Under the pieces are notes generated by a model, which made no database searches, had not been told where the DNA came from, and worked only from the letters and a program-made list of their open reading frames with translations. DNA of 45,322 bases, taken from positions 1-45,322 of the forward strand of contig JAHBVH010000068.1 of the NCBI GenBank assembly GCA_019637645.1, read 5' to 3'. This DNA comes from Caldilineaceae bacterium. GTDB lineage: Bacteria; Chloroflexota; Anaerolineae; Caldilineales; Caldilineaceae. How positions within the stretch are numbered: position 1 is the first letter of the stretch; every line of letters starts with the position of its first letter. A program made the translations under genes and the position numbers. Shown here piece by piece: positions 11,227 through 44,058 of the stretch.

Positions 11227-11295
11227 CTATCTACAGATGAAACAAGCGGAGCAGTTACATGAGGCAGAGTGGCATACAGCGTACAGTGGCTGCAT
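11227..11295 (-). CDS. Cys-rich leader peptide upstream of pstS (22 aa)
   Basis: A 22-codon ORF (ATG 11295, TAG 11227-11229) lies about 80 nt after the expected transcription start of the 11381-11436 promoter and 286 bp before pstS. Five of the 22 residues are cysteines, and its end reads SCNCSACFICR. No strong ribosome site is seen. Four other units of the island have a comparable Cys-rich ORF at the same place, so I infer a leader peptide whose translation reports Cys-tRNA supply. It is the least Cys-dense of the dedicated four short leaders and so the least certain with the one at 37942. Confidence 0.6.
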   Translation of the reverse strand: MQPLYAVCHSASCNCSACFICR

Positions 11296-11380
11296 ATGGA
11301 ACAGCTTTGGCGTCGTCATACAGACATTATCCAACCTAATTGACGTTTGTTTGACATGGACAAAACACAATTCGTCCTGC

Positions 11381-11436
11381 AGTCTAGCAACTGCCGGTAA
11401 CAAAAGCGGTGATAGGCTGGTAACAAAGCAGTAACA
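11381..11436 (-). promoter_or_regulatory. PhoB-type 56-bp promoter, copy 1 (pst unit)
   Basis: Read leftwards: TGTTAC (11436-11431), TGTTAC (11425-11420), TATCAC (11414-11409) and TGTTAC (11402-11397), with starts 11, 11 and 12 bp apart, then 10 bp, then the -10 hexamer TAGACT (11386-11381). No -35 box is needed in this design, because the direct repeats take its place. The expected start is near 11374. Identical geometry at six other sites is the main support. Confidence 0.8.
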
Positions 11437-11478
11437 GCGGCTTATAAAGCCGACGCGCCTTCTCGTTCAGGGATGAAC

Positions 11479-12564
11479 CTATGCAGCTTGACCAGACCAC
11501 GCACGGCGATGCCCATTCAGAGAGGGCGTCGCCGCGCTGATGTTCGGCTCATGGGGCAGTGCAAAGGCTTCGGCCAGAAGTTCGTAGGAACGACGTCGGG
11601 CGGCATGATCAGCGATATTGGTCACCATCATCAACTCATCCGCGCCGAGGCTGGTGACCAGCTCGGTTAGCGCCTGCCGCACCTGCACCGGATCGCCGTA
11701 GATCGGCGCAAAGGGACGCAGCTTTTCCAGCTCTTCGGCACTAAAAGAGTACGCCCGCGCCGCTGCCACCGTGGGCGGTGCGCCCCGCTCGCCTTTTTGC
11801 CGCTGCAAGTTTGCGAGATCCGCGGTCAATTTTAGATCTTCGGCGATCGCGTGGTTTTCGGCACAGATGACACTGACACAGAGAATCGCGTAAGGATGCG
11901 CCATTTCCGCCGACGGTTGAAAGGCAGCCTTATAGGCCGGGATCGCTTTGGTGGCCTCGGTGGGACTAAAGTGATAGGCTGCGCCAAAGCCACGCCCGCG
12001 ACTTGCGGCCAGTTTACCGCTCCGTTGGCCGGAACCCAACAACCAGATCGGCGGGAAAGGTACCCCTTCCGGCGAGGCGATCACCTCGTGCAGGGGGTTA
12101 TCTGCGGGGAAAGGGGAGGGGGCAACCTCGGCATAGCCCTCTAATTCGCGCACCAACCGTTCAATATCATCGGCGGCGGCCAGGGCTGCTTCGCTGCCGC
12201 GCAGCGCCAGAGCCGTGCGTTTATCCTGATTAGGCGCGCGCCCAATCCCCAGATCGATCCGGCCTGGGCTCAGGGCGGCCAAAGTGCGAAAGGTCTCAGC
12301 CACTTTGAGCGGGGCATAGTTGGGCAGCAAAATACCGCCCGACCCCACGCGAATACGCTTGGTCGCGCGGGCGATGACCCCAATCAGCACTTCGGGCGCC
12401 ACCGCGGCCAGCCCCACAAAGTTATGGTGCTCGGCCAGCCAATAGCGGTGATAGCCTAACTCCTCTGCCAATTGCGCCAATTCCAAGGTATTCTGGACAG
12501 CTTGAATCCCGCCGCCCCCATAGGGAATCGGAATGAGATCAAGGATAGAAAGTGGGAAAGTCAC
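11479..12564 (-). CDS. LLM-class flavin monooxygenase, group 1 (YhbW/YtmO-like)
   Basis: This 361-residue luciferase-fold flavoenzyme uses reduced FMN and O2. It opens with LSILDLIPIPYGGG and has WLAEHHNFVGLAAVAPEVLIG and the RIRVGSGGILLPNYAPLKVAE block, landmarks of the 'luciferase family oxidoreductase, group 1' that includes E. coli YhbW and Bacillus YtmO (CmoO). It is the last gene of the unit that starts at 19277. With the acetyltransferase, M20 enzyme and NtaA-type enzymes upstream, C-S bond cleavage of S-alkylcysteines is a reasonable inference; the substrate itself is not proven. Confidence 0.85.
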   Translation of the reverse strand: MTFPLSILDLIPIPYGGGGIQAVQNTLELAQLAEELGYHRYWLAEHHNFVGLAAVAPEVLIGVIARATKRIRVGSGGILLPNYAPLKVAETFRTLAALSPGRIDLGIGRAPNQDKRTALALRGSEAALAAADDIERLVRELEGYAEVAPSPFPADNPLHEVIASPEGVPFPPIWLLGSGQRSGKLAASRGRGFGAAYHFSPTEATKAIPAYKAAFQPSAEMAHPYAILCVSVICAENHAIAEDLKLTADLANLQRQKGERGAPPTVAAARAYSFSAEELEKLRPFAPIYGDPVQVRQALTELVTSLGADELMMVTNIADHAARRRSYELLAEAFALPHEPNISAATPSLNGHRRAWSGQAA

Positions 12565-12598
12565 AGCGTAGATCCTTTATTGTTAGAAATGGCGGTGG

Positions 12599-13951
12599 CT
12601 AGGCCACACGATAAGCTGGTTGGGCTACTCCCCAAGGGCTCGCGGGGCGCGGCACACCCAGATTTTCGCGCAAGGTGGTGCCGGTGTATTCGGTGCGGAA
12701 AAGGCCCCGATTTTGTAGCTCAGGTACGACCAAATCCACAAAATCATCCAAGTCATTGGGGAAGAGGGTCGGTGTTAGCAAGAAACCATCACTCGCCCCG
12801 GCTTCCAACCAATGCTGGAAGTGATCGGCAACCTGGCTGGGGGAACCAACCACTGGCGTCCGTGGCATAATCAAGTCGGCCACTTGACGCGCGGTAAGCT
12901 TTTGCTCACGCGCTTGCTCCTGCCATTTCTCGATCAAGGGAACATTAGCCGCCGGATTGGTTGTATCCAACGTTGGCAAAGGCGCATCCAGATCGATCCC
13001 CTGAAAGTCGAGGCCACTTTGCTCGCCCAAGAGATAGCGGATAATGTCATCGGTCAGCAGTAATTCACGATAATAAGCGGCCTTCTCTTTCGCCGCGGCC
13101 GCCGTCGGTGCCGTGATGACGCCTAACCCCGGCAGCAGACGCAGTTCGTCGGGCGACCGCCCGAGTTTACGCATCCGCGCTTTCACATCATCATAGTGGG
13201 CCTTGGAATCCTCCAGATTGCGATGCGGGCTAAAGATCACATCGGCGATCCGCGCGGCCAAATCACGGCCATCATCCGATTGACCCGCTTGGATGATCAC
13301 CGGATGGCCTTGGGGCGAACGGGGTACATCGAGTGGCCCGCGGACCGTGAACCATTCATCTTGGTGGTTGATCGCGTGGATTTTCTGAGGATCGAGCGCG
13401 CCATCGGCAAAGGCATCCTCTTCCCAGCTATCCCACAGTTGTTTGATCAGTCCCACAAACTCGCGCGCCCGCGCATAGCGCGTGGCATGATCGAGATGTT
13501 TTTCGCGGCTAAAGTTAAAAGCCACTTGGTCGCCGCCGGAATCTTTAGCAATGGAGTTGCTAAAGGTGGTGACCACATTCCAGGCCGCCCGCCCAGCGCT
13601 CACATGGTCAAGCGAGGCCAATTGGCGCGCCAATTCGTAGGGTTCGTTATAGGTGGATGAAATCGTCGCGGCCAAGCCCACATGGTTGGTCACCGCGGCC
13701 AAGGCCGGCAATAGGGCCAATGTGTCGGGTCGGCCATTGACAATCGGGCCGAAGATCTGATCGCGGTGTTCGCGAACCACGAGCCCTTCACCAAAAAAGA
13801 TAAAATCCAACTTACCCCGCTCCGCGGTTTGGGCAAAGCGGACATAGGTTTCAAATTCGGTAAATTTGGCATGATCCGGATGACGCCAGGCAATACTATG
13901 GCCGACGCCCTGTAGGAAAACCCCAATATGAAGTTGCTTTTGCGTGCTCAT
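12599..13951 (-). CDS. NtaA/SnaA/DszA-family flavin monooxygenase (first of two)
   Basis: This 450-residue LLM monooxygenase is of the nitrilotriacetate/DszA/SnaA type. Landmarks are HIGVFLQGVGHSIAWRHP at the start, DFIFFGEGL, SSTYNEPYELARQLASLDHVSAGRAAWNVVTT (FMN region, the last part diagnostic) and PVIIQAGQSDDGRDLAA. Bacillus YtnJ (CmoJ), which cleaves the C-S bond of N-acetyl-S-alkylcysteine sulfoxides, belongs to this family. ATG 13951 is preferred because AGGA lies just upstream; an in-frame start at 13975 adds eight residues. It follows its paralogue by 30 bp. Confidence 0.88.
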   Translation of the reverse strand: MSTQKQLHIGVFLQGVGHSIAWRHPDHAKFTEFETYVRFAQTAERGKLDFIFFGEGLVVREHRDQIFGPIVNGRPDTLALLPALAAVTNHVGLAATISSTYNEPYELARQLASLDHVSAGRAAWNVVTTFSNSIAKDSGGDQVAFNFSREKHLDHATRYARAREFVGLIKQLWDSWEEDAFADGALDPQKIHAINHQDEWFTVRGPLDVPRSPQGHPVIIQAGQSDDGRDLAARIADVIFSPHRNLEDSKAHYDDVKARMRKLGRSPDELRLLPGLGVITAPTAAAAKEKAAYYRELLLTDDIIRYLLGEQSGLDFQGIDLDAPLPTLDTTNPAANVPLIEKWQEQAREQKLTARQVADLIMPRTPVVGSPSQVADHFQHWLEAGASDGFLLTPTLFPNDLDDFVDLVVPELQNRGLFRTEYTGTTLRENLGVPRPASPWGVAQPAYRVA

Positions 13952-13981
13952 CTCTTTTCCTCGCAATCTTGGCACAGCAGG

Positions 13982-15118
13982 TTAGGCCGCCACAGTAGCA
14001 TACTGGCTAGTGGGGCGCGGCAAGCCCAGTTGCTCACGTAGAGTCGGGCCAGCATAGGCGTGGCGAAAAATGCCCCGTGCCTGAAGTTCAGGCACCACCT
14101 TATGGGTCAGTTCATAGAGACCATCGGGCAGAACCGCGGGTAGAAGATGAAAGCCATCGGCAGCTCCGGCCTCAACCCATTGCTGAGCAAAGTCGGCAAA
14201 TTGCTGGGGCGTGCCCACAAAGCGCTGGGCATAGGGCGTCACCGCTTTGCCATTTCGCCCAGCCGCCACAGCATCAAGTTGGGCAGCGCGTTGCTGGGCG
14301 AACGCTTCGGTTTCACCCAAAACGGGCAAGATGCTTTGGAGAATGCGCACAGTGCGCCCTGCCGTAGCCGCCTGATCGTGCAAACGGGCATAGGCGCGCT
14401 GCGCCGCGTGCAGGGTGGTATGGTGCAAGACTAATACGTCGGCGACTAGGGGAGACAGGGGCGCGCCCGCATCGCCTTCGTCCACCTGGACGACCACCAC
14501 ATGGCCTTGGGGCGGACGATAGGTGATCTGCGGGCCACGAATCCGAAAGTGCTCGCCCACATGGTTGATGTGGTGCAACTTGGCGGGATCAAGGTAGAGG
14601 CCCCGTTCCCGGTCGGCGATCACCGCGTCATCTTCCCAACTGTCCCACAGCTTGCGGCTGACTTCCACAAACTCTGTCGCCATGGCACGCCGCTGTTCGG
14701 CGTTGGGGGCATGGGGACGACTATAGTTGAACGCCTCCAGATCGGTGGCGTTGGTCGTCGGTTGCCACGCGGCACGCCCACCGCTGACAAAGTCGAGCGT
14801 TGCCAACTCGCGCGAAACCGTAAAGGGCTCACTATAGGTAGTCGGTTTACTGACCGCCAACCCAATCCTTTGGGTTTCGGGAGCCAAGCGGGACAAGAGC
14901 GACAGGGCATCTAGCCGACCCAAGGAAAGGTCTGCGGGCAGACTTCGGCCATCTTGCAATAGCACAAAATCGAGCAGCCCTTGTTCAGCCGCTTGGAGCA
15001 GTTGACGATAGTAAGCCACTTGGGTCAGGCGTGCGGCCTGCGTATGGGGCGCGCCAGGATGAAAGCCAAAACCGGCAATCGCCGCGCTGATAATTAATTG
15101 CTTGTTATGTGTACTCAC
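13982..15118 (-). CDS. NtaA/SnaA/DszA-family flavin monooxygenase (second, shorter)
   Basis: A second NtaA-type flavoenzyme of 378 residues, about 60-70 shorter than usual. It keeps DFVLLQDGR, SKPTTYSEPFTVSRELATLDFVSGGRAAWQPTT and the C-terminal FRHAYAGPTLREQLGLPRP shared with its neighbour. The start is GTG 15118: AAGGAG (15124-15129) lies 5 nt upstream, and this start avoids overlap with the M20 gene that a far upstream ATG would create. The pair probably acts on different S-alkyl groups or as oxidase/lyase partners; this is inference. Confidence 0.85.
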   Translation of the reverse strand: MSTHNKQLIISAAIAGFGFHPGAPHTQAARLTQVAYYRQLLQAAEQGLLDFVLLQDGRSLPADLSLGRLDALSLLSRLAPETQRIGLAVSKPTTYSEPFTVSRELATLDFVSGGRAAWQPTTNATDLEAFNYSRPHAPNAEQRRAMATEFVEVSRKLWDSWEDDAVIADRERGLYLDPAKLHHINHVGEHFRIRGPQITYRPPQGHVVVVQVDEGDAGAPLSPLVADVLVLHHTTLHAAQRAYARLHDQAATAGRTVRILQSILPVLGETEAFAQQRAAQLDAVAAGRNGKAVTPYAQRFVGTPQQFADFAQQWVEAGAADGFHLLPAVLPDGLYELTHKVVPELQARGIFRHAYAGPTLREQLGLPRPTSQYATVAA

Positions 15119-15147
15119 ACCTGCTCCTTCTTCAAGCTGGCGCATGG

Positions 15148-16377
15148 TCAATCCTGGTGTGCGTTGGGTGCTTGTTCTGCGATGAAACGCGCCAGGGTGG
15201 CCGACCAGGGCAACAACTCGAGGGTCTGCTCGACGAGTTGCACCCAAAAACCTGCACCGATGGTCAGAATGTTGTCGTTAAAATTGTAGCGGGGGGTATG
15301 CAGCCCCGCGCTGTTGCCATTCCCAATCCAAATATACGCGCCTGGCCGCGCCTGCAACATATAGGAAAAGTCCTCGGCGGTCATCAATGGTTTCAGATCA
15401 GTCAGCACATTTTCTGGGCCGACAAGCGTTTCTAACACCTGACGCGCGGTCGCGGCCGCGGGCGGGCTGTTGATGGTCGCCGGGTAGCCGCGGTGATAAC
15501 GGGCAGTCACCTCCAAGCCATAGGTTGTGGCAATCCCAGCGGCCAACCGCTGCAACCCCTGCTCTAGCACCTGCCGGGTTGCGTCGCTATAGGTGCGGGC
15601 CGTCCCCTGGAGCTTGACGGTGCTGGGGATGATGTTCGTCGCGTCGCCCCCATGAAATTGGGTCACCGAGAAGACCGCGGGGGCGAGTGGATCCAACTGG
15701 CGACTGATGATCGACTGGAGTGATTGCACCAACGCGCTGCCAGCCAAAATCGGATCGGCGGTGGTGTGGGGCAAGGCGGCATGACCACCCGTGGCCGTAA
15801 GCACCACTTCAAAATAGTCACCCGCCGCCATCATCGGGCCTGGCATCACCGCGAACTGACCGGCTGGCAGGCCAGGGATATTGTGCATGGCATAGACCGC
15901 ATCCACGGGGAAGCGCTGGAAAAGTCCTTCTTGAATCATCCGGTTGGCACCGGCACCGGCCTCTTCGGCGGGCTGGAAAATAAAGACAACGGTGCCATCA
16001 AAATTACGAGTTTCGCTGAGATAGCGCGCCGCCAACAGTAACATGGTGGTGTGACCATCATGACCACAGGCATGCATTTTGCCTTTATGCCTAGAACGGT
16101 AGGGCAGCTCGTTCTGCTCGGTCAACGGCAGCGCATCGATATCAGCCCGTAACCCGATCGTATGCGGGCTGGAACCGTTGCGCAGAATCCCCACCACCCC
16201 TGTGCGCGCCAAGCCACTATGAATCTCAAGCCCATAGGACTCCAGCTCTTGGGTGATGAGCGCGGCCGTCCGCTGTTCTTCATAGGCCGTCTCGGGATAG
16301 GTATGCAATTCATGACGCAGCGCTGTAAAGATGGAACGATAAGGTGCCAACTTTTCTAAAAGGGTCGAACGAGCCAC
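15148..16377 (-). CDS. M20-family amidohydrolase (N-acyl-amino-acid deacetylase)
   Basis: This is a cytoplasmic metal-dependent amidohydrolase of the M20D/HipO type, 409 residues. Metal ligands visible include C104 and H106 in HACGHDGHT, E138/E139 in PAEEAGAG, H164 in YAMHN and a C-terminal His in AGLHTPRYNFND. The dimerisation (lid) domain lies around residues 190-300. GTG 16377 is the start, with AGGAAAAG upstream. In this operon it is well placed to remove N-acetyl from a cysteine derivative after the monooxygenases, as YtnL does in Bacillus. Confidence 0.88.
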   Translation of the reverse strand: MARSTLLEKLAPYRSIFTALRHELHTYPETAYEEQRTAALITQELESYGLEIHSGLARTGVVGILRNGSSPHTIGLRADIDALPLTEQNELPYRSRHKGKMHACGHDGHTTMLLLAARYLSETRNFDGTVVFIFQPAEEAGAGANRMIQEGLFQRFPVDAVYAMHNIPGLPAGQFAVMPGPMMAAGDYFEVVLTATGGHAALPHTTADPILAGSALVQSLQSIISRQLDPLAPAVFSVTQFHGGDATNIIPSTVKLQGTARTYSDATRQVLEQGLQRLAAGIATTYGLEVTARYHRGYPATINSPPAAATARQVLETLVGPENVLTDLKPLMTAEDFSYMLQARPGAYIWIGNGNSAGLHTPRYNFNDNILTIGAGFWVQLVEQTLELLPWSATLARFIAEQAPNAHQD

Positions 16378-16484
16378 AAGTTTCTTTTCCTATGTTCAAC
16401 TTCAAATGGCAAAAATGGGTGATAGGGTAGGGTCAACCTTGCCTGGATCGATCCCTTGGGAAGTGGTTGGCGACGAACTTCATC

Positions 16485-17021: not shown

Positions 17022-17078
17022 TTCTTCCTCACTTGTCTTGTATGCTCAGGTATTACATAGCTGCCAGGTCTGACAGGT

Positions 17079-18947: not shown

Positions 18948-18950
18948 AGG

Positions 18951-19301: not shown

Positions 19302-19338
19302 AAAAAAAGCGTTGCCGGTAAGTTCCGGTGACGCTTTT
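19302..19338 (-). terminator. Attenuator terminator of the S-alkylcysteine-type unit
   Basis: On the transcript strand AAAAGCGT pairs with ACGCTTTT, with CCGG/CCGG inside, and the stem runs straight into seven T's. It ends 25 bp before the first structural gene, so read-through is required for expression. Confidence 0.8.
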
Positions 19339-19496
19339 CAGCTTGATCAACTGTGGGTTGTGCTGTGCGCTTGCTGTTCACCGGATTCCACCCCTAGGGT
19401 TGGGTTAGCGGAAGCAGTGAACACCTACCTTATCTCATCGTCTCCCATACAACGGGCCGCGTTGTATGGCCAGAACTCAAGACCACTGCCTCCGCT
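19302..19496 (-). promoter_or_regulatory. Leader RNA with attenuation switch, copy A
   Basis: The 5' arm AGCGGAGGCAGTG (19496-19484), which overlaps the end of the Cys-rich ORF, pairs over 13 bp with CACTGCTTCCGCT (19419-19407). TCCGGTGA (19385-19378) can pair with TCACCGGA (19331-19324), the left arm of the terminator, so it is a candidate antiterminator. Leader B (37769-37955) has the same arms, antiterminator and terminator in the same order although the loops differ. Known riboswitch classes do not fit what I see. Confidence 0.7.
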
Positions 19497-19551
19497 GAGT
19501 ACATGAACAACAACACGATAAGGTAAAAAAGAGTGGTGAGGACAGGGTCAT
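19477..19551 (-). CDS. Cys-rich leader peptide of unit A (24 aa)
   Basis: A 24-codon ORF (ATG 19551, TGA 19477-19479) starts about 66 nt after the expected transcription start. Its middle is TLSCCCSCTQRRQ: four Cys codons in five. The codons after the Cys run form the 5' arm of the leader stem, so a ribosome stalled for lack of Cys-tRNA would cover or free that arm. CAGGAAT is a modest ribosome site upstream. The layout is that of ribosome-mediated cysteine attenuation, known for mycobacterial poly-Cys leader ORFs. Confidence 0.75.
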   Translation of the reverse strand: MTLSSPLFFTLSCCCSCTQRRQWS

Positions 19552-19624: not shown

Positions 19625-19680
19625 AGCATACGGGGAGTCGGTCACAATACAAGTACTACTTTGGTAACAAACGGGTAATA
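19625..19680 (-). promoter_or_regulatory. PhoB-type 56-bp promoter, copy 2 (unit A)
   Basis: Read leftwards: TATTAC (19680-19675), TGTTAC (19669-19664), TAGTAC (19658-19653), TGTGAC (19646-19641), then 10 bp and -10 TATGCT (19630-19625). Spacing is again 11, 11, 12 and 10. The expected start is near 19617. It is divergent from copy 3, with 52 bp between them. Confidence 0.8.
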
Positions 19681-19843: not shown

Positions 19844-20092
19844 ATGGTAGTGAATCATTTACTACTGCTAGGCACCGTGGGTTGGTTCGCGGTAATGTTG
19901 ACCCTCACCACCTATTACATTCTGATAGTCGATCGCATAAAATCGTCTGATTTTGAAGAAGAGCCCATTTCCTTGAGCGACGGCGAAACCGTCTACCTAC
20001 CATCCTCAATGTATCCTCACAACGAATTTATGCAAGTAACGACCATGCCCTTCATTCACGAGCAACCCGAAGCCTTTCCCTATGCCGGTTGA
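19844..20092 (+). CDS. Small single-pass membrane protein, paralogue 1
   Basis: An 82-residue protein with one hydrophobic segment (about residues 5-27, ending TYYILIVD) and an acidic tail. AAAGGAG (19828-19834) lies 9 nt before the ATG. It resembles the 106-residue protein at 38325: both have YYIL-x2-D at the end of the membrane segment and a Y-L-[PA]-S-S-M-x-P-x2-E-[FY] motif about 25-30 residues later. No known family is recognised. Both genes are driven by the 56-bp promoter and diverge from sulfur units, which suggests a role at the membrane in the same response. Confidence 0.75.
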   Translation: MVVNHLLLLGTVGWFAVMLTLTTYYILIVDRIKSSDFEEEPISLSDGETVYLPSSMYPHNEFMQVTTMPFIHEQPEAFPYAG

Positions 20093-20111: not shown

Positions 20112-20168
20112 CACTGTCACAAAAAGAGGCCAGCATTAGCAAAATGCTGGCCTCTTTTTGTGACAGTG
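20112..20168. terminator. Long bidirectional terminator
   Basis: Perfect 26-bp arms (20112-20137/20143-20168) surround a 5-nt loop. The AAAAAG/CTTTTT segments make T-runs on both strands. It lies between the convergent small membrane protein gene and the cysteine dioxygenase gene. Confidence 0.85.
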
Positions 20169-20206: not shown

Positions 20207-20857
20207 TTAAGCTTCGGCACAAGCTAGGTTGGAATAGCCCGACCGAAACGCCCGTACCCGCTCATGCTCTGGTTCAAAGGCATGACGGACGACACACCCT
20301 GTGTCATTAGCTAGGAGATGGATCGAAATCGATGGGGCGTCCGACGTTGTGGTGACGGCGTGAATATCACCATCGGGTGGCAATAATTTGTAGATACCTC
20401 CTGGTTTGAGCGCGTTGACTTCGGCGATTTCGAGTACGGCCCGCTCTTCTTCGGTGCCGTCATCAACCCGCCGATAGACCGTTTCATTCTGTTCCCCCCG
20501 ATAGAGCCCCACAAAGCCCCAAGCCAAATGATCATGGATGGGCGTTGAACTTGTTGGCGGTACTACCAAGCTAAAGAGTGAAAGGGAGTGGTCGCCCGCC
20601 CGAAAGAGGAGCCAACTGCCAATCCCGCCGCCCATACCGCTTTGCTGATAAGGCGCGGCAAATTCATCAGGTAGCCAAGTCGGATCGGCCAATAATTGGG
20701 CAAAGTAGGGCTGTAACTCATCTAACCCAGCGGAGATATCCGTGTGGCGGGCAACAATCCGGCGCACGTCATCAATAAACAGGCGAATCACTGGCGTATC
20801 TAATAAAAATTGATCTTGTCCATCATGCGAATGAACAACATCATGCGTACCACACAT
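20207..20857 (-). CDS. Cysteine dioxygenase-like cupin (type I family)
   Basis: This 216-residue protein matches the cysteine dioxygenase family, non-haem Fe enzymes that oxidise cysteine (or a thiol) to a sulfinate. The iron ligands fit HDH at 108-110 (TPIHDHLAWGFVGLYRG) and H166 (GDIHAV). SIHLLANDTG follows, as in CDO-like cupins. ATG 20857 is favoured because AAAGGA lies upstream; a longer frame to 20950 runs into a repeat. It is the last gene of the ssu unit. Burning cysteine in a sulfur-scavenging operon is unexpected, so a 3-mercaptopropionate or other thiol substrate is possible. Confidence 0.78.
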   Translation of the reverse strand: MCGTHDVVHSHDGQDQFLLDTPVIRLFIDDVRRIVARHTDISAGLDELQPYFAQLLADPTWLPDEFAAPYQQSGMGGGIGSWLLFRAGDHSLSLFSLVVPPTSSTPIHDHLAWGFVGLYRGEQNETVYRRVDDGTEEERAVLEIAEVNALKPGGIYKLLPPDGDIHAVTTTSDAPSISIHLLANDTGCVVRHAFEPEHERVRAFRSGYSNLACAEA

Positions 20858-20881
20858 TGACCAATCCTTTCTTTTTTGGCA

Positions 20882-20931
20882 AGACCTGGCAGCGTTTTTC
20901 ATTGGCGGTTGTGGAAACCACAAAACCGACC
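20882..20931. repeat. Dispersed ~50-bp repeat (copy 1)
   Basis: This stretch, starting agacctggcagcgttttt and ending accacaaaaccgacc, matches 44130-44180 at most positions; transitions account for most differences. An internal GTGG/CCAC hairpin is shared. It lies upstream of the cysteine dioxygenase gene. Confidence 0.6.
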
Positions 20932-20993
20932 AGCTACGAAATTTTGCCAACCTGCCAGGTTGCCGGTTACAAAAAACCCTTCGGCGCTCATGC

Positions 20994-31508: not shown

Positions 31509-31667
31509 CTAGCTACAGCAGCAAGTCTCGCACAACAAATGACAGGAGGTACAACAGGGGCTACAACAGGGGCTACAACAGGAAGGACAACGGGTGCTGG
31601 GGTGCATGAAAGAAATGGAACGGAAAAAAGGTGAATGACTTGGTTGCGCTATCAGTTCTAACATCAT
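31509..31667 (-). CDS. Poly-Cys leader peptide of the ssu unit (52 aa)
   Basis: From ATG 31667 (a tandem ATGATG after AAGGGGGGA) to TAG 31509-31511, 52 codons, 12 of them Cys, all in the second half: RCPSCCSPCCSPCCTSC and a last CETCCCS. A 12-bp tandem repeat (31551-31582) encodes the CCSP units. The final codons share the 17-bp word CCCGCTAGCTACAGCAG (+ strand) with the leader at 43978. A 32-codon form from an internal ATG or a longer GTG form from 31766 cannot be excluded. Inferred role: cysteine-sensing leader. Confidence 0.75.
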   Translation of the reverse strand: MMLELIAQPSHSPFFRSISFMHPSTRCPSCCSPCCSPCCTSCHLLCETCCCS

Positions 31668-31816: not shown

Positions 31817-31872
31817 AATATATCAGACTTCTATCACGAAGTCAGCAACAGGAGCGTAACAAGTGCGTAACA
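31817..31872 (-). promoter_or_regulatory. PhoB-type 56-bp promoter, copy 4 (ssu unit)
   Basis: Read leftwards: TGTTAC (31872-31867), TGTTAC (31861-31856), TGTTGC (31850-31845), CGTGAT (31838-31833), 10 bp, then -10 TATATT (31822-31817). It has the best -10 and the weakest fourth half-site of the set. The expected start is near 31809. Confidence 0.75.
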
Positions 31873-37768: not shown

Positions 37769-37801
37769 AAAAAAGCGCCACCGGCTGAATCCGGTGACGC
37801 T
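37769..37801 (-). terminator. Attenuator terminator of the sulfurtransferase unit
   Basis: On the transcript strand AGCG-TCACCGG pairs with CCGGTGGCGCT around a short loop and is followed by six T's. It ends 35 bp before the sulfurtransferase start, matching the placement of the terminator at 19302. Confidence 0.8.
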
Positions 37802-37955
37802 TGCGCAACTGACTAAGTCAGGCGTGCTGTTGGCATCTTCTTCACCGCATTCGGCCACGAAGTGGGCGGAAGCAGTGGGCTCCTGGGCGCATCTTGTTGC
37901 TGTCTACAGAGCCAAACGCGTTGACTCGTAGCAGAGACAGATCACTGCTTCCGCT
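37769..37955 (-). promoter_or_regulatory. Leader RNA with attenuation switch, copy B
   Basis: The 5' arm AGCGGAAGCAGTG (37955-37943) pairs with CACTGCTTCCGC (37877-37866) over 12 bp. GAATGCGGTGA (37852-37842) pairs at 10 of 11 positions with TCACCGGATTC (37797-37787), the left terminator arm. Order, arms and terminator match leader A; the internal arm differs in sequence but is also a hairpin (GAGTCAA/TTGGCTC). The similarity in structure with divergent loops supports a selected RNA. Confidence 0.7.
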
Positions 37956-38007
37956 TTCTACAGCGACAACAACCAGTGAATTCAACCACAATAGCTGACA
38001 TTTCCAT
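37942..38007 (-). CDS. Cys-rich leader peptide of unit B (21 aa)
   Basis: A 21-codon ORF (ATG 38007, TGA 37942-37944) about 78 nt after the expected start. It ends TGCCRCRKRKQ, with three Cys in four codons. As in leader A, basic/Gln codons after the Cys cluster form the 5' arm of the leader stem and the stop codon overlaps its end. No strong ribosome site is visible. It has the fewest Cys residues of the five, but the shared architecture supports it. Confidence 0.65.
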   Translation of the reverse strand: MEMSAIVVEFTGCCRCRKRKQ

Positions 38008-38092: not shown

Positions 38093-38148
38093 AGCGTAAC
38101 AATCGGGCGTAACAATAACAGTATATCGCTGGTAACAAAGCGGTAACA
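38093..38148 (-). promoter_or_regulatory. PhoB-type 56-bp promoter, copy 5 (unit B)
   Basis: Read leftwards: TGTTAC (38148-38143), TGTTAC (38137-38132), ATATAC (38126-38121), TGTTAC (38114-38109), 10 bp, then -10 TACGCT (38098-38093). A further TGTTAC lies just downstream at 38101-38096. The expected start is near 38085. Copy 6 faces the other way 26 bp away. Confidence 0.8.
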
Positions 38149-38174
38149 TCGCTTGGTAGATGGCGAGTTCCATC

Positions 38175-38230
38175 TGTTACCCGCCTGTTACCAACCAACG
38201 ACTCCCCGTGTGACCTCACGCCTGTATCCT
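38175..38230 (+). promoter_or_regulatory. PhoB-type 56-bp promoter, copy 6 (small membrane protein 2)
   Basis: Read rightwards: TGTTAC (38175), TGTTAC (38186), AACGAC (38197), TGTGAC (38209), 10 bp, then -10 TATCCT (38225-38230). The first pair reads CTGTTAC-N4-CTGTTAC, one base from the E. coli Pho-box form in each half. The expected start near 38238 leaves an 87-nt leader with no Cys-rich ORF. Confidence 0.8.
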
Positions 38231-38324
38231 GGCAACACGGTTACGCAACCATCAATACCGTAAATTAATTACGTAGAAGCGAGAAAAACATATCGACAAA
38301 ATTGAGCTTACAAGGAGGAGCCTT

Positions 38325-38645
38325 ATGTTACTGGAAAGTTTATTAATTGTAGGTGCCGTTGCCGTAGGTTTTGCCATGCTGATCATGCTCGTCTACTATA
38401 TCTTGACTGCCGACCAAAGCCAACCCACCGAAACCGAAGGGCCAACATGGAACCATCCGCCGGTGCTGGATGACGATCTGCTCTATCTGGCTTCCTCCAT
38501 GGTTCCCTATCAAGAATATGCCTATTTCCCCGTCCTGCCCCTAAGCCGCGACCGGCAAGAGGTTGCACAATCCCTGCCACAGCGCACATCGCTTCCCGTG
38601 TTACCTTTCCAGCTCGAACGGCAAGAAGCCATTCAAACGGCCTAA
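38325..38645 (+). CDS. Small single-pass membrane protein, paralogue 2
   Basis: A 106-residue protein with one hydrophobic segment (residues 3-27, ending VYYILTAD), an acidic middle, and the LYLASSMVPYQEY motif (about 55-67) shared with paralogue 1 (19844). Its longer tail holds a rough repeat: PVLPLSRDRQE and, later, PVLPFQLERQE. AAGGAGG (38312-38318) precedes ATG. No known family is recognised. No Cys residues are present, fitting expression under sulfur limitation. Confidence 0.75.
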   Translation: MLLESLLIVGAVAVGFAMLIMLVYYILTADQSQPTETEGPTWNHPPVLDDDLLYLASSMVPYQEYAYFPVLPLSRDRQEVAQSLPQRTSLPVLPFQLERQEAIQTA

Positions 38646-38667
38646 CCCAATCCAATACGCCGCTTTA

Positions 38668-38706
38668 GTAGCGACGCCGTTCACACAAGCGGAATGGCGT
38701 CGCTAC
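38668..38706. terminator. Bidirectional terminator between convergent genes
   Basis: A 15-bp stem (38668-38682/38692-38706, one G-T pair) with a 9-nt loop, containing GTAGCGACGCC, separates small protein 2 from the leftward tauC. It is 22 bp past one stop codon and 14 bp before the other. Confidence 0.65.
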
Positions 38707-38720
38707 GTGTTCTAAACTAG

Positions 38721-39551
38721 TTACCCCTTGCCCCGCCACGGGACAATCGTCCGATCCAACCAGCGAATACCAGCATCAAGCAGCGCCCCCGTCACCCCCA
38801 TGAGGATAATGCCCACAAAGATCACATCGCTTTGTAAGAACTTGCTCGCGTCCAAGACCATCCAGCCAATGCCATCAATCCCGGCCACCATTTCCGCCGC
38901 CACCAAGGTCGTGTAGGTAAAGCCAATCGAGACGCGCAACCCCGTAAAGATCTCGGGCAGACAAGCCGGGAAGATCACATGCCGGAAAAGCTGCCAACGG
39001 CTAGCCCCCAAGGACTGGGCACCGTGCAGATAATCGCTGCGGACAGAACGAACACCCGTTGCCGTGGCAATCACCACCGGCGGCAACGCGGCCAGAAAAA
39101 GCAACGCCACTTTGGAAGCGTTGTCGATCCCCAGCCAGATCACCAGTAACGTGTAGTAGGCAAGCGGCGGCAAAGGGCGATAGAACTCAAGCGGGAGGTC
39201 AAAAATGGCAGCAATGCGCCGGTCGCTGCCCATAGCCAAACCCAATGGCACGCCAACCAGAGCACTGGCGCCATAGGCCATTAACACCCGCGCCAAACTC
39301 GCGCCCAGATGATGCCACAGCGTATGGCCGCGGTAGCCTTCTTCGAGAATGCGCCAAAAGGTCTGCCAGGTCTTCATGGGTGTCGGCACAAAATAGGGAG
39401 GGACTAACCCGCTGGCCGAAACGCCATACCATATCCCAAGGATCGCGCCCAGTGTAACGATCGTAATCATCGTTTCTGTTCGGAGTGGCCAACGGCGCGC
39501 CCCTGGTAGAGTAGTGGATTGCGGCTTGCTCACAGCTTGCTCGGTAGCCAT
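38721..39551 (-). CDS. tauC: Taurine/sulfonate ABC transporter permease TauC
   Basis: A 276-residue permease with about six membrane segments. LEFYRPLPPLAYYTLLVIWLGIDNASKVALLFLAALPPV, the coupling loop GAQSLGASRWQLFRHVIFPACLPEIFTGLRVSIGFTYTTLVAAEMVAG and LDASKFLQSDVIFVGI follow TauC rather than SsuC. It is the last gene of the unit and starts 2 bp after the ssuD stop. Confidence 0.9.
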   Translation of the reverse strand: MATEQAVSKPQSTTLPGARRWPLRTETMITIVTLGAILGIWYGVSASGLVPPYFVPTPMKTWQTFWRILEEGYRGHTLWHHLGASLARVLMAYGASALVGVPLGLAMGSDRRIAAIFDLPLEFYRPLPPLAYYTLLVIWLGIDNASKVALLFLAALPPVVIATATGVRSVRSDYLHGAQSLGASRWQLFRHVIFPACLPEIFTGLRVSIGFTYTTLVAAEMVAGIDGIGWMVLDASKFLQSDVIFVGIILMGVTGALLDAGIRWLDRTIVPWRGKG

Positions 39552-39553
39552 GC

Positions 39554-40735
39554 CTATACCCCGTTACGTTGGGCTTGGGGCTGGCCTGCACCATGTGTCG
39601 CCGCCAATTCTTCTGGGCGGTAATCATTCGCTACGACTTCGCCAACAAAATGTCGTGCTTGATCAACGGACGTGGTTCCCGGCCTTTCTATCGGCAGATG
39701 TGGAAAGAGCCATTCAGCCACCCGATAGGCTTCTTCGAGATGCGGATAGCCAGAAAAGATAAAGGTGTCGATCCCCAACGCAGCATATTCCTGCATGCGC
39801 TGGGCAATCTGCTCCGGGTCACCGACCAAAGCCGTCCCGGCGCCCCCGCGCACCAACCCAACGCCACGCCAAAGGTTCGGGCCAATCACCAACGAGTCAC
39901 CATAGGTGCGCTGTAACTCAACCATGCGCTGCTGCCCGTGCGAATCATAGCGGCTGAGGATCTTTTGGGCCTTCTCGACCGTCGCCGGATCGACATATTG
40001 GATCAGCTCATCTGCAGCGCGCCATGCTTCGGCCTCGGTGCGGCGCACAATGATATGCAGGCGAATACCAAAGCGCACGGTACGCCCTTGGGCCGCGGCC
40101 CGTGCGCGGATATCGGCGATCTTTGCCGCCACCTGTGCCGGGGGTTCGCCCCAGGTGAGGTAGACATCGGCATGCCGCGCGGCCACGGCGTGCCCAGCCG
40201 GGGATGAGCCGCCAAAATAGAGGGGCGGATGAGGACGCTGCACCGAAGGCAACATGAGCTTGCCAGCTTCCAAGCGGAAATGATTGCCTTGGAATGTCAC
40301 CGCTTCACCGCTCGTCAACTGGCGCCAGATGGTCAAAAACTCATCCGTGACCGCATAACGCGTATCATGGTCGAAATGCACACCCTCACCGGCCAGTTCC
40401 ACGGGATCGCCGCCGGTGACGACATTGATGAGGAGCCGCCCTTCCGAAAGGCGATCAAAGGTGGTCGCCATTTGGGCGGCCAAGGCCGGTGAAATCAGCC
40501 CAGGCCGCAGCGCGACCAGAAATTTCATGCGCGTGGTGACAGGCAGGAGCGAGGCCGCGACCAGCCAGGCATCTTCACAGCCACGGCCCGTTGGCAACAA
40601 AGCACCGGTAAAGCCCAATTCGTCGATGGCCTGGGCAACTTGGCGCAAATAGGCGGGCGTGAGAGGGCGGCCACCCATGCTTGTGCCCAAATAGTGCCCA
40701 TCCCCATGGGTGGGAATAAACCAGAAAATCTTCAT
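39554..40735 (-). CDS. ssuD: Alkanesulfonate monooxygenase SsuD
   Basis: A 393-residue FMNH2-dependent alkanesulfonate monooxygenase, releasing sulfite from C2-C10 sulfonates. From memory it aligns closely with E. coli SsuD throughout: [90 protein letters not shown] and [14 protein letters not shown]. It overlaps tauB by 4 bp. Finding it between tauB and tauC, where tauD is expected, makes a hybrid operon. Confidence 0.93.
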
Positions 40736-41511
40736 AGTAACCTACCTTCTTCTTCACGCCAGATATAGTTCAAAATTGTTTCGCGGGCGGCGACAAAATC
40801 GGGGCGCGCCTTGATGGCGCGGCTCTCCCCTGCCTCGCGCGAAAAAGCGACCGGCACATCGGCCACCACCCGGCCAGGGCGAGGCGACATGACCAACACG
40901 CGTGTACCCAAATAGACGGCTTCTTCCACGCTGTGAGTAATCAGGATGATCGTCGTTTGGGTCGCGCGCCAGATCTTGCGTAATTCTTCTTGCATATGTT
41001 CACGCGTGAGCGCATCCAGCGCGCCAAAGGGTTCATCCATCAACATGATCCGCGGCTCGTTGATCAGCACGCGGGCAATGGCGGCGCGCTGTTGCATGCC
41101 CCCCGAGAGTTCATAGGGGGCGCGGCGACCAAAGTCGGCCAGCCCAACCAGCTTTAACAACGCGTTCACCCGCTCCTGGCGCACGGCCCTTGGCACTTTG
41201 CGCAGTTGCAGACCAAAGGCGACATTATCGGCCACCGTCAGCCACGGATAGAGCGCGGGCTGTTGAAAGACAATCCCCCGATCCGCGGCTGGTCCCACAA
41301 TCGGTTGACCATCCATCAGGGCGGCACCGCTGGTGGGAAAAAGCAAACCAGCGACAATCCGCAAAAGGGTTGTCTTGCCACAGCCCGACGGCCCCACCAC
41401 ACAAATAAACTCACCGGCGGTCACGGTAAGTGAAACATCCGCGAGGGCATGGACCAAACCATGCCGACTGGGATAGGTAAGATCAACTTGTTGTAATTGT
41501 AAAAGTGACAT
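40732..41511 (-). CDS. tauB: Taurine/sulfonate ABC transporter ATP-binding protein TauB
   Basis: A 259-residue importer ATPase. Walker [11 protein letters not shown]-loop [24 protein letters not shown], signature LSGGMQQR, Walker [13 protein letters not shown] and [12 protein letters not shown] are intact. The C-terminal [21 protein letters not shown] resembles TauB's tail. It lies 56 bp after tauA and overlaps ssuD by 4 bp. Confidence 0.9.
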
Positions 41512-41567
41512 GATGGGTAACGAAACGCTGTGTGCGTCAGGGGCGTACGCACACAGCCAGGGGTGGA

Positions 41568-42788
41568 TTATTGACCGACAGCCTGTTGGAGGAAAGCCGG
41601 GTTGGCCCCGCTCTGGAAGACGCTCAACTCCGGCGCGCTCTCCAACACCTTCTGCGCCACCAAGAAATCAGCCGTTGTTTTGAGGGCTTGACCTAAGGCA
41701 CCCGGTGCGGCACTGGTCCCAAAATAGGTCGCGTCAAGCTGTTCACTAGCCGTCAACCAGATGAGACCCGCGGCCTGGGCCGTGGCTTCTTCAGGCGTGA
41801 TGCTCAGTTCGGCGGCAAGCAACGCCGCCGCTTGGGTTGGGTCACTGCGATAGAGATCCACGGCCTTGGAAAGATTCTGGACATAGAGCGCCACAGCTTC
41901 GGGGTATTGGCTGGCAAAGTCGCGGGTGACGATAGCCACATCAAACGTCGGGAAGCCCTGGGCGGCCACCTCGTCGCTACCGATCAGCTTGGTACCGCCA
42001 TCATCATAGAGCTTTTGGAGGGTCGGTTGCCAAACGTAAGCGCCATCAAGGTCACCGCGCGTCCACGCCGCCAACAGATCAGCCGGGTTGAAATCGAGCA
42101 AGGTCACTTCATCTGGGCTAATGCCATTCAGTTGGAGCACTTGCAGGAGCGAGTAATGGGTGGTTGAGCCAAAGGGTGCGCCTAGCTTCTTGCCTTTCAG
42201 ATCCGCAAAGCTTTGGATCGAGCCACGCACGGCCAGCGCTTCGCTATCACCGATGAGATCATAGAAAGCAACCACTTCATAGGGAAGCCCTTGGGCCAAC
42301 CCAGCCGCCGCCGGACTGCTGCCCACCAACCCAATATCAATGCTACCACTGGCAATCGCCGTATTGACATCGCGTCCACTTTCAAATTGACGCCACTCAA
42401 TGGCTGTACCGAGTGCTTGTTCATGCCACTGAAGTTGCTTGGCAATCAATTCGGCATTGGGGATAGCCTGATAACCAATGCGCACAACATCGGGCTTGTT
42501 GGTGATAGTGATGGTCGGGTAGGCGACTGCCGTGGCCGCGCTCGTAATCGGCGCGCGCGCGGCGGTCACCGCTTCAGTAGCGGTTACGCCTTCGGTGGTC
42601 GTGACTACAGCCGTGGTCGTAATCGCAGGCGTAGCGGTCAGCGGCTCCGTTGGTGCTTCCGTTGGTGCCGCGGTTGGTGCTGGCGCAGTCGTCGGCGTCG
42701 CGCCGGCACCACAAGCCGCGAGGCTGAATAGCAACAGCGCAAGCAACAGCGCAAGGTACGTAGATTTTACAGAAAAACGATGAACCAT
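41568..42788 (-). CDS. tauA: Taurine-type ABC substrate-binding lipoprotein TauA
   Basis: A 406-residue lipoprotein. The signal peptide ends in LAAC (C26), followed by a 60-residue Thr/Ala/Pro/Glu linker. The binding domain matches TauA: VRIGYQAIPNAELIAKQL, WRQFESGRDVNTAIASGSIDIGLVGSSPAA, APFGSTTHYSLLQVL and AAWTRGDLDGAYVWQP. ATG 42788 is preferred over TTG 42803 because GGGAG precedes it. It starts 50 bp after the tRNA-Cys gene on the same strand. Confidence 0.92.
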   Translation of the reverse strand: MVHRFSVKSTYLALLLALLLFSLAACGAGATPTTAPAPTAAPTEAPTEPLTATPAITTTAVVTTTEGVTATEAVTAARAPITSAATAVAYPTITITNKPDVVRIGYQAIPNAELIAKQLQWHEQALGTAIEWRQFESGRDVNTAIASGSIDIGLVGSSPAAAGLAQGLPYEVVAFYDLIGDSEALAVRGSIQSFADLKGKKLGAPFGSTTHYSLLQVLQLNGISPDEVTLLDFNPADLLAAWTRGDLDGAYVWQPTLQKLYDDGGTKLIGSDEVAAQGFPTFDVAIVTRDFASQYPEAVALYVQNLSKAVDLYRSDPTQAAALLAAELSITPEEATAQAAGLIWLTASEQLDATYFGTSAAPGALGQALKTTADFLVAQKVLESAPELSVFQSGANPAFLQQAVGQ

Positions 42789-42838
42789 AGGAAACTCTCC
42801 CAATCCTTTATTGTGCGTTTCATCAAAAGTACAACAAG

Positions 42839-42910
42839 AGGCGACGGCCGGAATCGAACCGGCGTATCAGGATTTTGCAGATCCATGCCTTACCACTTGG
42901 CGACGTCGCC
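42839..42910 (-). tRNA. tRNA-Cys (anticodon GCA)
   Basis: The 72-nt cloverleaf is complete: acceptor GGCGACG/CGTCGCC, D-arm GCCAAGTGGTAAGGC, anticodon arm GGAT-CTGCAAA-ATCC with anticodon GCA, and T-arm GCCGG-TTCGATT-CCGGC. The discriminator is U73, as required for cysteinyl-tRNA. CCA is not encoded. It lies between the UspA-like gene and tauA on the same strand, inside a unit that begins with a poly-Cys leader. Confidence 0.95.
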
Positions 42911-42927
42911 ATCAAATTTTCGGGATT

Positions 42928-42957
42928 GCCCGGGATGACGGGCGTCAGCGCCCGGGC
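42928..42957 (-). promoter_or_regulatory. GC-rich hairpin just upstream of tRNA-Cys
   Basis: GCCCGGG (42928-42934) pairs with CCCGGGC (42951-42957), and inner bases pair further. It may be a tRNA processing element or a terminator for upstream transcription. Confidence 0.4.
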
Positions 42958-43005
42958 GGAACCGAAAGAAGAGAGAAGAAAAAGAATGAGAATGAGAGAG
43001 GGTGA

Positions 43006-43035
43006 GCAACGAATCGGCTCCCCACGATTCGTTGC
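43006..43035 (-). terminator. Hairpin between the UspA-like gene and tRNA-Cys
   Basis: Perfect 11-bp arms (43006-43016/43025-43035, gcaacgaatcg/cgattcgttgc) with an 8-nt loop. On the transcript strand a 40-nt pyrimidine-rich tract follows (+ strand purines, 42963-43001). It could partly terminate transcription from the 44186 promoter before the tRNA and tau genes. I see nothing else in 43036-43165. Confidence 0.5.
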
Positions 43036-43165
43036 CCCCGCCAAGATCGGATCACCAATCCGGTTTTGATGGGGCGATCACCTTCTGCTCAGCATAATCT
43101 AGCCTGATGGCTATCCACCACCAGGGAGCGCCCCCTCGCCGATGTTCAGGTTGTTGATCGCTTGG

Positions 43166-43717
43166 TTAAAGCGCATGGGCGAGCGACGGTTCATAGGCCA
43201 ACTTTTCTAACGTAGCTTGCTCTTGCGTGGTACGCTGTTTCGCGCCGGCGGCAGGATCAGCACGCATCAGTAACAAAGGAATGGGCGACTGCCGCAAGAC
43301 ATTTTCGGCCACGCTGCCCAAGAGCAAGCGCGACAGGCCGGTGCGGCCACGCGTTGCCATGGCAATGAGATCATAGATGCCGTTTTCCACGGCAGCGAGG
43401 ATTTGCGCCACCGGCTCGCCGACCCGCACGATGGTATGGACGCGATAACCGGCGGCGCGCAACGTATTTGCCAACGCTTTTAGCTCAATTTCAAAGCGTT
43501 GGCGATAGTGGTGCCATTCCTCGTCTGTGCATGGCACTAGGTAGGTTGAATGGGGAACGTCACCCACATAGGCATCGACCGTCATGCTGTGGTCTGGTCG
43601 TTGCGTGATGCCCAACAAAATCAACTCTGCCTCGCTCGGTGAGAAAAGCTGGCGCACCACCGACAGAATTTCTAGACTGATTTCAGAGACATTGAGTGGA
43701 ATCAGAATCCGACGCAT
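43166..43717 (-). CDS. Universal stress protein (UspA family)
   Basis: A 183-residue UspA-domain protein: RRILIPLNVSEIS at the start, the nucleotide-binding GRTGLSRLLLGSVAENVL (G-x2-G-x9-G-S) and PIPLLLMR strand at the end. A 35-residue tail extends past the usual 140-150-residue domain. ATG 43717 has AAAGG 7 nt upstream; the upstream in-frame start at 43744 is less likely. It is the first structural gene after the poly-Cys leader at 43978, 260 bp upstream; I see nothing else coding in that gap. Confidence 0.88.
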   Translation of the reverse strand: MRRILIPLNVSEISLEILSVVRQLFSPSEAELILLGITQRPDHSMTVDAYVGDVPHSTYLVPCTDEEWHHYRQRFEIELKALANTLRAAGYRVHTIVRVGEPVAQILAAVENGIYDLIAMATRGRTGLSRLLLGSVAENVLRQSPIPLLLMRADPAAGAKQRTTQEQATLEKLAYEPSLAHAL

Positions 43718-43977
43718 AGAATTACCTTTCCTAGTCCAACCCATAGCATGCCAGCGTTGCGCAAGAGCAGTTCAATGCCCATACAACGCCTTGGTGCGAT
43801 CTATAAGATAGCGTGGATATTCAAAGTCCAAAACGCGGACAACTCGCTGAAATACGTGGGGAGGATGGTGGGTTTGGCTACTGGCGTGTGGTCAAGGAAG
43901 AGTGCGTAACAGCGCCTGAGCCATTGCTGCCCCTTCTGACAGCGAGCAAACACCATTCTCACCCAGGCGAGCGCCCG

Positions 43978-44058
43978 CTAGCTACAGCAGGCCCTACACC
44001 CGGCGCAGGAGAAAGAACAACAAGTAGAGGTACAACAGGAGGTAAAATAAGCCATCAT
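43978..44058 (-). CDS. Poly-Cys leader peptide of the usp-tRNA-Cys-tau unit (26 aa)
   Basis: A 26-codon ORF (tandem ATGATG at 44058-44053, TAG 43978-43980) with eight Cys: FTSCCTSTCC and CAGCRACCS at the end. An in-frame TGA lies shortly upstream, so the ORF must start here. It begins about 120 nt after the expected transcription start. Its last 17 bp are identical to the end of the ssu leader (31505-31521). No strong ribosome site is seen. Inferred role: cysteine-sensing leader. Confidence 0.75.
   Translation of the reverse strand: MMAYFTSCCTSTCCSFSCAGCRACCS

Follow-up and report, generated by a model that had tools for sequence, protein, structure and literature searches.

A 45,322-nt contig of Caldilineaceae bacterium (JAHBVH010000068.1, assembly GCA_019637645.1), the whole of which is called the window here, carries five short open reading frames (ORFs) rich in cysteine (Cys) codons ahead of strings of mostly sulfur-related genes. 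An earlier reading made from the letters alone (the sequence-only reading) took these ORFs for leader peptides acting as Cys-responsive attenuators over a multi-operon set, and the question that the locus raises is whether they are. Support for this view comes above all from relatives (sense-strand leaders and conserved Cys codons) and also from the anatomy of leaders 2 and 4, and we consider it likely that the Cys-rich ORFs are regulatory leader peptides, namely Cys-responsive attenuators with intrinsic termination as the readout in leaders 2 and 4. Support for the attenuator reading is strong for the whole class of leaders and weak for leader 1, which precedes a pst-like operon. The terminator model of leaders 2 and 4, the only ones with in silico support for a readout, is moderately supported.

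Cysteine-rich leaders in the window and in its relatives

The five ORFs lie on the minus strand exactly where the sequence-only reading had placed them, and the Cys contents that it gave are exact (Table 1). All are intergenic and run in the same direction as the leftward gene string that each precedes. Among the 38 ORFs of the window taken as genes, 49 of 11,707 residues (0.42%) are Cys. For each leader region, the densest Cys run found in a sense ORF was compared with 2000 dinucleotide shuffles of that region, and the results for the five regions of the window combined to p ~1e-6 (Fisher). Leaders 3 and 5 are far beyond chance and leader 2 nominally so. Leader 3 holds a 12-nt tandem repeat, which raises its Cys-run score and is a plausible route to gaining Cys codons.

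The window's own genes led to relatives: its rhodanese matched genome contigs with up to 74% identity (best segment), best in Chloroflexota, and its SsuD reached 78% identity in genome G335, in whose order (Caldilineales-like Chloroflexota) rhodanese was found in 45 of the 46 genomes searched. Among the first 80 rhodanese loci across phyla, 8 exceeded a loose score of 3.8, and only two, the Anaerolineae loci L004 and L005, had upstream Cys-run ORFs that were convincing by eye. At rhodanese loci L111, L113-L118, L123, L129, and L140, upstream ORFs end in Cys runs, e.g., CCGPCCILCCTCLCS and CCFCCTSCCCC. Within the order, a strict leader pattern gave 11 matches vs. 2 in a reversed control and added leaders ahead of cysH, while leaders ahead of sulfite reductase and further cysH genes came from hand-picked loose patterns. 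The loose patterns, of five Cys codons, were mostly noise. From their lists 20 regions were picked by eye, and 10 of these have a Cys-run ORF before cysH or sulfite reductase (L242-L249, L253, L258); L259, a probable eleventh, ends ahead of its gene, and the other nine matched by chance or in coding sequence. In six loci with such leaders, domain scans showed PAPS_reduct, NIR_SIR, and CbiX downstream.

For an enrichment test on fetched orthologs in the Caldilineales-like order, a Cys-run score of at least 5 was required within 450 nt upstream. Results showed Cys-run ORFs before rhodanese, cysH (PAPS reductase), or sir (sulfite reductase) genes at 31 of 98 loci in sense and 0 of 98 in antisense, counts that are not independent as the loci are related and that include the cysH and sir loci where leaders were first seen by pattern. 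By gene, sense leaders preceded cysH at 17 of 30 loci, rhodanese at 7 of 43, and sir at 7 of 25, with no antisense case in any family (0/30, 0/43, and 0/25), and other mechanically called ORFs of these loci, 200 aa or longer, served as a control (0/190 sense, 3/190 antisense). The threshold matters for rhodanese, which at a score of 4 gave 9 sense vs. 6 antisense loci; cysH (20 vs. 0) and sir (7 vs. 0) were unaffected, and of the 190 control ORFs, 3 reached that score in sense and 4 in antisense. The rhodanese count covers 43 loci of the 45 matching genomes, with G079 and G145 left out, extra copies (e.g., L147) uncounted, and L117, whose leader lies beyond 450 nt, scored as a miss. The cysH count covers 30 loci including L248, one locus having been dropped for its short upstream region, with further cysH matches without loci standing outside it; the sir count covers 25 loci, with the second copy L317 unused. 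No leader was found at 15 actinobacterial loci under a criterion that misses L004 too, and therefore the known actinobacterial cases provide no positive control. At ssu loci of Anaerolineae genomes (L108, L109, L141-L146), no convincing leader was found before the ssu genes.

Conservation of Cys codons was seen in cysH leaders. In an alignment of 17 of them, all beginning with MRI, every leader has Cys in the same four columns (17/17). Single-base codon differences over all pairs of these leaders were synonymous in 40 cases and nonsynonymous in 12 where Cys was involved, compared with 432 and 712 elsewhere in the same leaders; the pairs share ancestry and are not independent, and the four invariant Cys codons are invariant in DNA too. 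A check proposed with the sequence-only reading, that Cys content be kept and other codons not, thus came out in its favor, as cysH leaders keep their Cys positions while other codons drift. The Cys run at the end of the upstream ORF (uORF) before sulfur genes is kept among relatives, in only part of the orthologs.

Some further Cys-rich ORFs were seen along the way. Distant rhodanese paralogs in other genomes (~45% identity; L142, at 2774-2854, and L162) also carry Cys leaders of their own, each with a strong intrinsic terminator after it. Upstream of sulfite reductase, L312-L315 carry hyper-expanded leaders with 17-19 Cys (e.g., ending CNCGCCCCRTSCSCSCSCSCSCSCCPSG), then a conserved terminator hairpin. 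Another short Cys-rich ORF, L144:3643-3705 (+) (LLKWGIYCCHCICECNCWWR), lies ~1 kb before the next long ORF and away from that locus' ssuD. A GGCTCRTC motif occurs no more than 90 nt past the stop in 21 of 36 leaders, a count made without shuffle control (e.g., L111/L113/L115/L116, L262-L272, and L312-L315), with offsets of +9 to +12 for rhodanese and cysH and of +42 to +60 for sir.

Table 1. Leader ORFs, paired segments, terminators, promoter repeats, and tRNA gene of the window; shuffle counts are those whose Cys-run score was as high as the observed one.
Feature	Position	Strand	Description
Leader ORF 1	11227..11295	-	MQPLYAVCHSASCNCSACFICR; Cys 5/22; 224/2000 shuffles; weakest case
Leader ORF 2	19477..19551	-	MTLSSPLFFTLSCCCSCTQRRQWS; Cys 4/24; 37/2000 shuffles
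Leader ORF 3	31509..31667	-	Cys 12/52; AAAGGGGGG ahead; 0/2000 shuffles
Leader ORF 4	37942..38007	-	MEMSAIVVEFTGCCRCRKRKQ; Cys 3/21; 134/2000 shuffles
Leader ORF 5	43978..44058	-	MMAYFTSCCTSTCCSFSCAGCRACCS; Cys 8/26; 1/2000 shuffles
Leader 2 segment A	19483..19496	-	AGCGGAGGCAGTGG
Leader 2 segment B	19407..19420	-	TCACTGCTTCCGCT
Leader 2 segment C	19371..19385	-	TCCGGTGAACAGCAA; can pair with B, Cys codons, or terminator 5' arm
Leader 2 intrinsic terminator	19302..19336	-	AAGCGTCACCGGAACTTACCGGCAACGCTTTTTTT; stem with internal mismatches, missed by strict scans
Leader 4 segment A	37943..37954	-	GCGGAAGCAGTG; directly after Cys codons, extends into stop codon
Leader 4 segment B	37866..37877	-	CACTGCTTCCGC; perfect 12-bp complement of A; identical 12-mer in leader 2 segment B
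Leader 4 segment C	37842..37852	-	GAATGCGGTGA; antiterminator partner of terminator 5' arm
Leader 4 intrinsic terminator	37773..37802	-	12 pairs, then TTTTATTT
TGTTAC-N5-TGTTAC direct repeat	11420..11436	-	upstream of leader 1
TGTTAC-N5-TGTTAC direct repeat	19664..19680	-	upstream of leader 2; 1 mismatch
TGTTAC-N5-TGTTAC direct repeat	31856..31872	-	upstream of leader 3
TGTTAC-N5-TGTTAC direct repeat	38132..38148	-	upstream of leader 4
TGTTAC-N5-TGTTAC direct repeat	44225..44241	-	upstream of leader 5
tRNA-Cys (anticodon GCA)	42838..42910	-	between Usp gene and ssuA, downstream of leader 5

Attenuator anatomy and proposed readout of the leaders

Attenuators of the trp and his type combine a leader peptide rich in the regulated amino acid with a terminator and an antiterminator that are mutually exclusive. 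Three features of the trp type are found in leaders 2 and 4: a leader with Cys codons (both ORFs are enriched in them, leader 4 non-significantly by itself), an intrinsic terminator, and an alternative antiterminator helix predicted to depend on the position of the ribosome. Segment A follows the Cys codons, reaching the stop codon or near it, and has its complement B ~60-65 nt downstream, with 14 A:B pairs in leader 2 and 12 in leader 4. The arrangement differs from the classical one in that A sits at the end of the leader ORF, where a ribosome at the stop codon would mask it, and in its four-segment chain of A:B, B:C, and C:terminator arm, in which B:C pairing is evident for leader 2 alone.

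Folding was modeled with the ribosome as an unpaired block and the terminator 3' arm treated as not yet made. With the ribosome at any of the three leader 4 Cys codons or the first three of leader 2, the helix between C and the terminator arm had a predicted probability of 0.86-0.93; with the ribosome at either stop codon the probability fell to 0.02, and without a ribosome it was 0.34. When the ribosome was moved over every codon at four footprint sizes, the change between ON and OFF fell at or just past the Cys run in both leaders. The best ribosome-dependent helix was matched by 0/40 spacer shuffles in leader 2, 2/40 in leader 4, and 0/40 in L142. In leader 2, the helix ranked top in this comparison is GTTCTG:CGGAAC, which is not the C helix and holds the same terminator arm. 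On this modeling, the case for trp-type attenuation in leaders 2 and 4 is good but not conclusive.

From these data we infer translation of the leaders, stalling, termination, and a response to cysteine, as follows. The speed of leader translation would report the supply of charged tRNA-Cys and so set the output of the sulfur operon behind each leader. When Cys-tRNA is sufficient, the ribosome in leaders 2 and 4 would get to the stop codon and cover A, leaving B free; C would then be unable to hold the terminator 5' arm, and the terminator would form (OFF). With Cys-tRNA in short supply, the ribosome would wait at the Cys run, the uncovered A would pair with B, C would pair with the terminator 5' arm, and transcription would continue (ON). 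Since leaders 1, 3, and 5 carry no recognizable intrinsic terminator, the same sensor there may act through another readout, probably Rho-dependent termination or translational control, as in mycobacteria.

Across the whole leader set, a strict scan found a terminator after 11 of 46 leaders vs. 1.48 expected, although four of the 11 (L312-L315) have one hairpin in common and the scan misses the leader 2 stem. Past the leader stop and before the gene, a stem followed by a T-run is present in leaders 2 and 4, in the sir leaders L310 and L312-L315, and in L004 and L142. As terminators occur in only part of the leaders, a single Cys sensor seems to feed two or more readouts. Leaders 1, 3, and 5 and relatives' leaders share, by eye, the stop context TGTAG-N-TAGC (TGTAGCTAGC or TGTAGCTAAG). 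RNAalifold on five rhodanese and six cysH leaders found little covariation (terms -0.88 and +0.41), and we claim no consensus structure for the class without terminators. A T-box or riboswitch was considered and rejected, since in an Rfam scan of the leader regions the tRNA alone reached the gathering score.

Promoter repeat and genes downstream of the leaders

The sequence-only reading had joined the multi-operon leaders to a shared activator site. The direct repeat TGTTAC-N5-TGTTAC, at up to 2 mismatches, has 11 matches in the window, some overlapping, vs. 1.16 expected. All five leader promoters have at least one copy, and the two divergent rightward promoters have one apiece. The site is therefore real at all five leaders, whereas its combination with a leader was not seen in relatives: none of the 38 leaders examined there has the repeat upstream (0.35 expected). 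The pairing of both layers has thus to date been observed in the window alone, and, given also an ssu operon of G335 that has the repeat but no Cys leader, the two layers are separable. An 11-nt period, such as that of the repeat, suits a regulator of the OmpR/PhoB type. In G335 locus L141, the exact repeat occurs twice, flanking a gene pair for a histidine kinase and an OmpR-type regulator. One copy (2666-2682, -) stands just before the histidine kinase gene, which precedes the regulator gene, and the other (5377-5393, +) precedes ssuE/ssuD-like genes, ~350 nt past the regulator gene. An activator binding the repeat, probably an OmpR-type response regulator, would set initiation as a second layer of control.

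Placement of the leaders 66-142 nt after predicted transcription starts remained unconfirmed, as scanning for sigma-70 promoters gave no match at leaders 1, 2, and 4; leaders 3 and 5 had a single weak match each, and the one at leader 5 overlaps that leader's ATG. The strong Shine-Dalgarno-like AAAGGGGGG before leader 3 counts against a leaderless start of that leader; at L004 and L005, -10-like boxes lie, by eye, just before the ATG. That the rightward promoters have no Cys leader held up, with no ORF of at least two Cys behind either. Small rightward ORFs at 38325-38645 (+; 106 aa) and 19844-20092 (+; 82 aa) diverge from leaders 4 and 2, respectively; each has one hydrophobic segment and a TGTTAC repeat, and the former has no Pfam match.

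Gene identities were taken from Pfam and NCBIfam and operon boundaries from gene order. Leader 5 precedes Usp, tRNA-Cys, and ssuA-ssuB-ssuD-ssuC; leader 4, a rhodanese, an OppA/B/C-type transporter, and a cystathionine gamma-synthase-like gene. Behind leader 3 lies a second sulfonate-type transporter (ssu) operon of the window, with three SsuA-like proteins, luciferase-like (LLM) monooxygenases, and a thioredoxin-like protein. Leader 2 is followed by orf108, nitroreductase, DUF1684, GNAT, an M20 amidohydrolase, and luciferase-like monooxygenases (two of the NtaA/DmoA type), a set that may resemble the operons for S-alkylcysteine salvage in Bacillus. The transporter behind leader 1 is PstS/C/A/B-like, and its role in phosphate uptake is plausible but not assured, because its PstS (98 bits vs. 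a cut-off of 206.6, TIGR02136) and PstB (330.8 vs. 343.2, TIGR00972) score below the family cut-offs.

If the tRNA-Cys gene is co-transcribed with the leader 5 operon, tRNA-Cys supply would be coupled to Cys attenuation. L167, the ssuA-ssuB fragment of G335, yielded no tRNA. A perfect 26-nt inverted repeat with a 5-nt loop (20112-20168) is probably a two-way terminator, and Rfam Thr_leader matches there are weak and under the gathering score. The ORF at 20207-20950 (-; 247 aa) has no Pfam or NCBIfam match and by eye looks cupin-like, of the cysteine dioxygenase kind.

Alternative explanations and known cysteine leaders

Several results weigh against the attenuator reading. At a score of 5, 67 of the 98 orthologous loci are without a leader (rhodanese 36/43, sir 18/25, cysH 13/30); class-wide, the strict leader pattern is not enriched (10 matches vs. 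7 in the reversed control); and the G335 ssuED-like operon, the closest ssu operon examined, has the TGTTAC repeat but no Cys leader. Within the window, leaders 1 and 4 are individually non-significant against shuffles, an antisense ORF of region 4 outscores leader 4 (4.6 vs. 4.0), and no intrinsic terminator lies between leader and first gene at leaders 1, 3, and 5, where leader 5 has only a weak 5-bp match. In the folding models, codons immediately before the Cys run are also ON, such that the boundary is specific and the codon is not; with the longest footprint (15 nt downstream), values fall to 0.39 for the last leader 4 Cys codon and to 0.06 for Cys15 in leader 2, and Cys17 of leader 2 is OFF at every setting. 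The helices of L004, L005, and L162 are not above spacer shuffles (8/40, 31/40, and 34/40 as high). Total pairing of the terminator 5' arm fails to separate stalled from stop states, with 30 of 60 shuffles as high for leader 4, 4 for leader 2, 37 for L142, 13 for L004, 35 for L005, and 33 for L162. Since the helix-specific statistic was adopted after this measure had failed, its choice is partly post hoc, and both are given. Lastly, the full-transcript equilibrium of leader 4 always favors the terminator; the switch must therefore be kinetic, i.e., co-transcriptional.

The mycobacterial gene cysA2 encodes a thiosulfate sulfurtransferase. Cys-rich uORFs have been described at cysA2 and nirA in mycobacteria as what would be, if borne out, "first examples" of cysteine-directed attenuation (Shell et al., 2015, PMC4633059), and polycysteine leaderless short ORFs were studied there experimentally (Canestrari et al., 2020, as cited in PMC13236596, PMC9031893, and PMC9094748). 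Our leaders resemble these, as far as the accessible text of those papers describes them, in the C-terminal Cys clusters before sulfur genes (here rhodanese and sulfite reductase), and differ in phylum and in that the mycobacterial mechanism is described as translational. In Actinobacteria, candidate Cys leader peptides with Cys-codon runs near the stop lie upstream of cys operons and cbs (PMC1262725, 2005), which again is like the present leaders, except that no terminator hairpin is reported for them. Relative to both groups, part of our set has intrinsic terminators, and two leaders have antiterminators of paired segments, while the leaderless start is a mycobacterial feature that is not established here. 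Closer in readout is the uORFC-8-2 motif of Rhodobacterales, in which a Cys-codon uORF and then an intrinsic terminator precede cysS and ribosome-mediated attenuation is proposed (PMC8632094, 2021). As outlined in the available part of that paper, it has two tandem Cys codons before a single gene, that of Cys-tRNA synthetase, in Alphaproteobacteria, whereas the window leaders have 3-12 Cys codons ahead of several sulfur-acquisition operons. A survey of Chloroflexi riboswitch regulons does not contain the term "leader peptide" in its accessible text (PMC3766115), and no account of Cys attenuation in Chloroflexota stood among the papers listed by the literature searches, which covered few subscription papers. 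The leaders therefore appear as a multi-operon Chloroflexota form of known Cys attenuation, and control of this type seems undescribed in that phylum.

These precedents also bear on a different account of the readout, in which the leaders are real Cys sensors but none acts by intrinsic termination, stalling being read by Rho-dependent termination or translational coupling. The 35 of 46 leaders without an intrinsic terminator in the strict scan fit such an account, as do the actinobacterial Cys leaders without conserved terminator hairpins, for which a Rho-dependent route is suggested (PMC1262725), and translation attenuation described in M. smegmatis (PMC13236596), both as given in the portions of those papers that are available. 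We nevertheless regard it as unlikely, since stems with T-runs precede the gene at the leaders listed above (2, 4, L310, L312-L315, L004, L142) and competing helices are present in leaders 2 and 4. That the ORFs instead encode small functional peptides, metal- or thiol-binding and metallothionein-like, co-expressed with sulfur genes, is improbable in our view. The 17-19 Cys of the sir leaders L312-L315 would suit such peptides; set against this, the cysH peptides drift outside their Cys positions, length and Cys spacing vary between gene families, and the Cys runs are mostly near the stop, with terminators after several. Compositional chance, by which TGT-rich low-complexity upstream DNA is read as Cys in one frame, draws on leaders 1 and 4, each within reach of shuffles alone, on the higher antisense score in region 4, and on loose Cys patterns that are common genome-wide, with reversed controls nearly as common in many genomes. 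It is already disfavored, and we hold it very improbable, given 31/98 sense vs. 0/98 antisense loci, other ORFs at 0/190 in sense, and the combined p in the window.

If the attenuator reading holds, ribosome-based cysteine sensing would be a recurrent solution in distant phyla and not mainly a mycobacterial one, and two readouts, intrinsic termination and another, would exist within one lineage. A wider proposal, which we hold as tentative and rather doubtful, is that Cys-codon attenuation is a regulon-wide sulfur sensor of Caldilineales-like Chloroflexota, self-closing here through the tRNA-Cys gene of the leader 5 operon; when charged tRNA-Cys ran short, both sulfur scavenging and tRNA-Cys itself would then rise. 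Cys leaders may also serve as a cheap annotation signal: operons whose substrate is unknown, among them the window's PstS-like transporter and its luciferase-like monooxygenase clusters, would be marked by them as candidates for cysteine supply.

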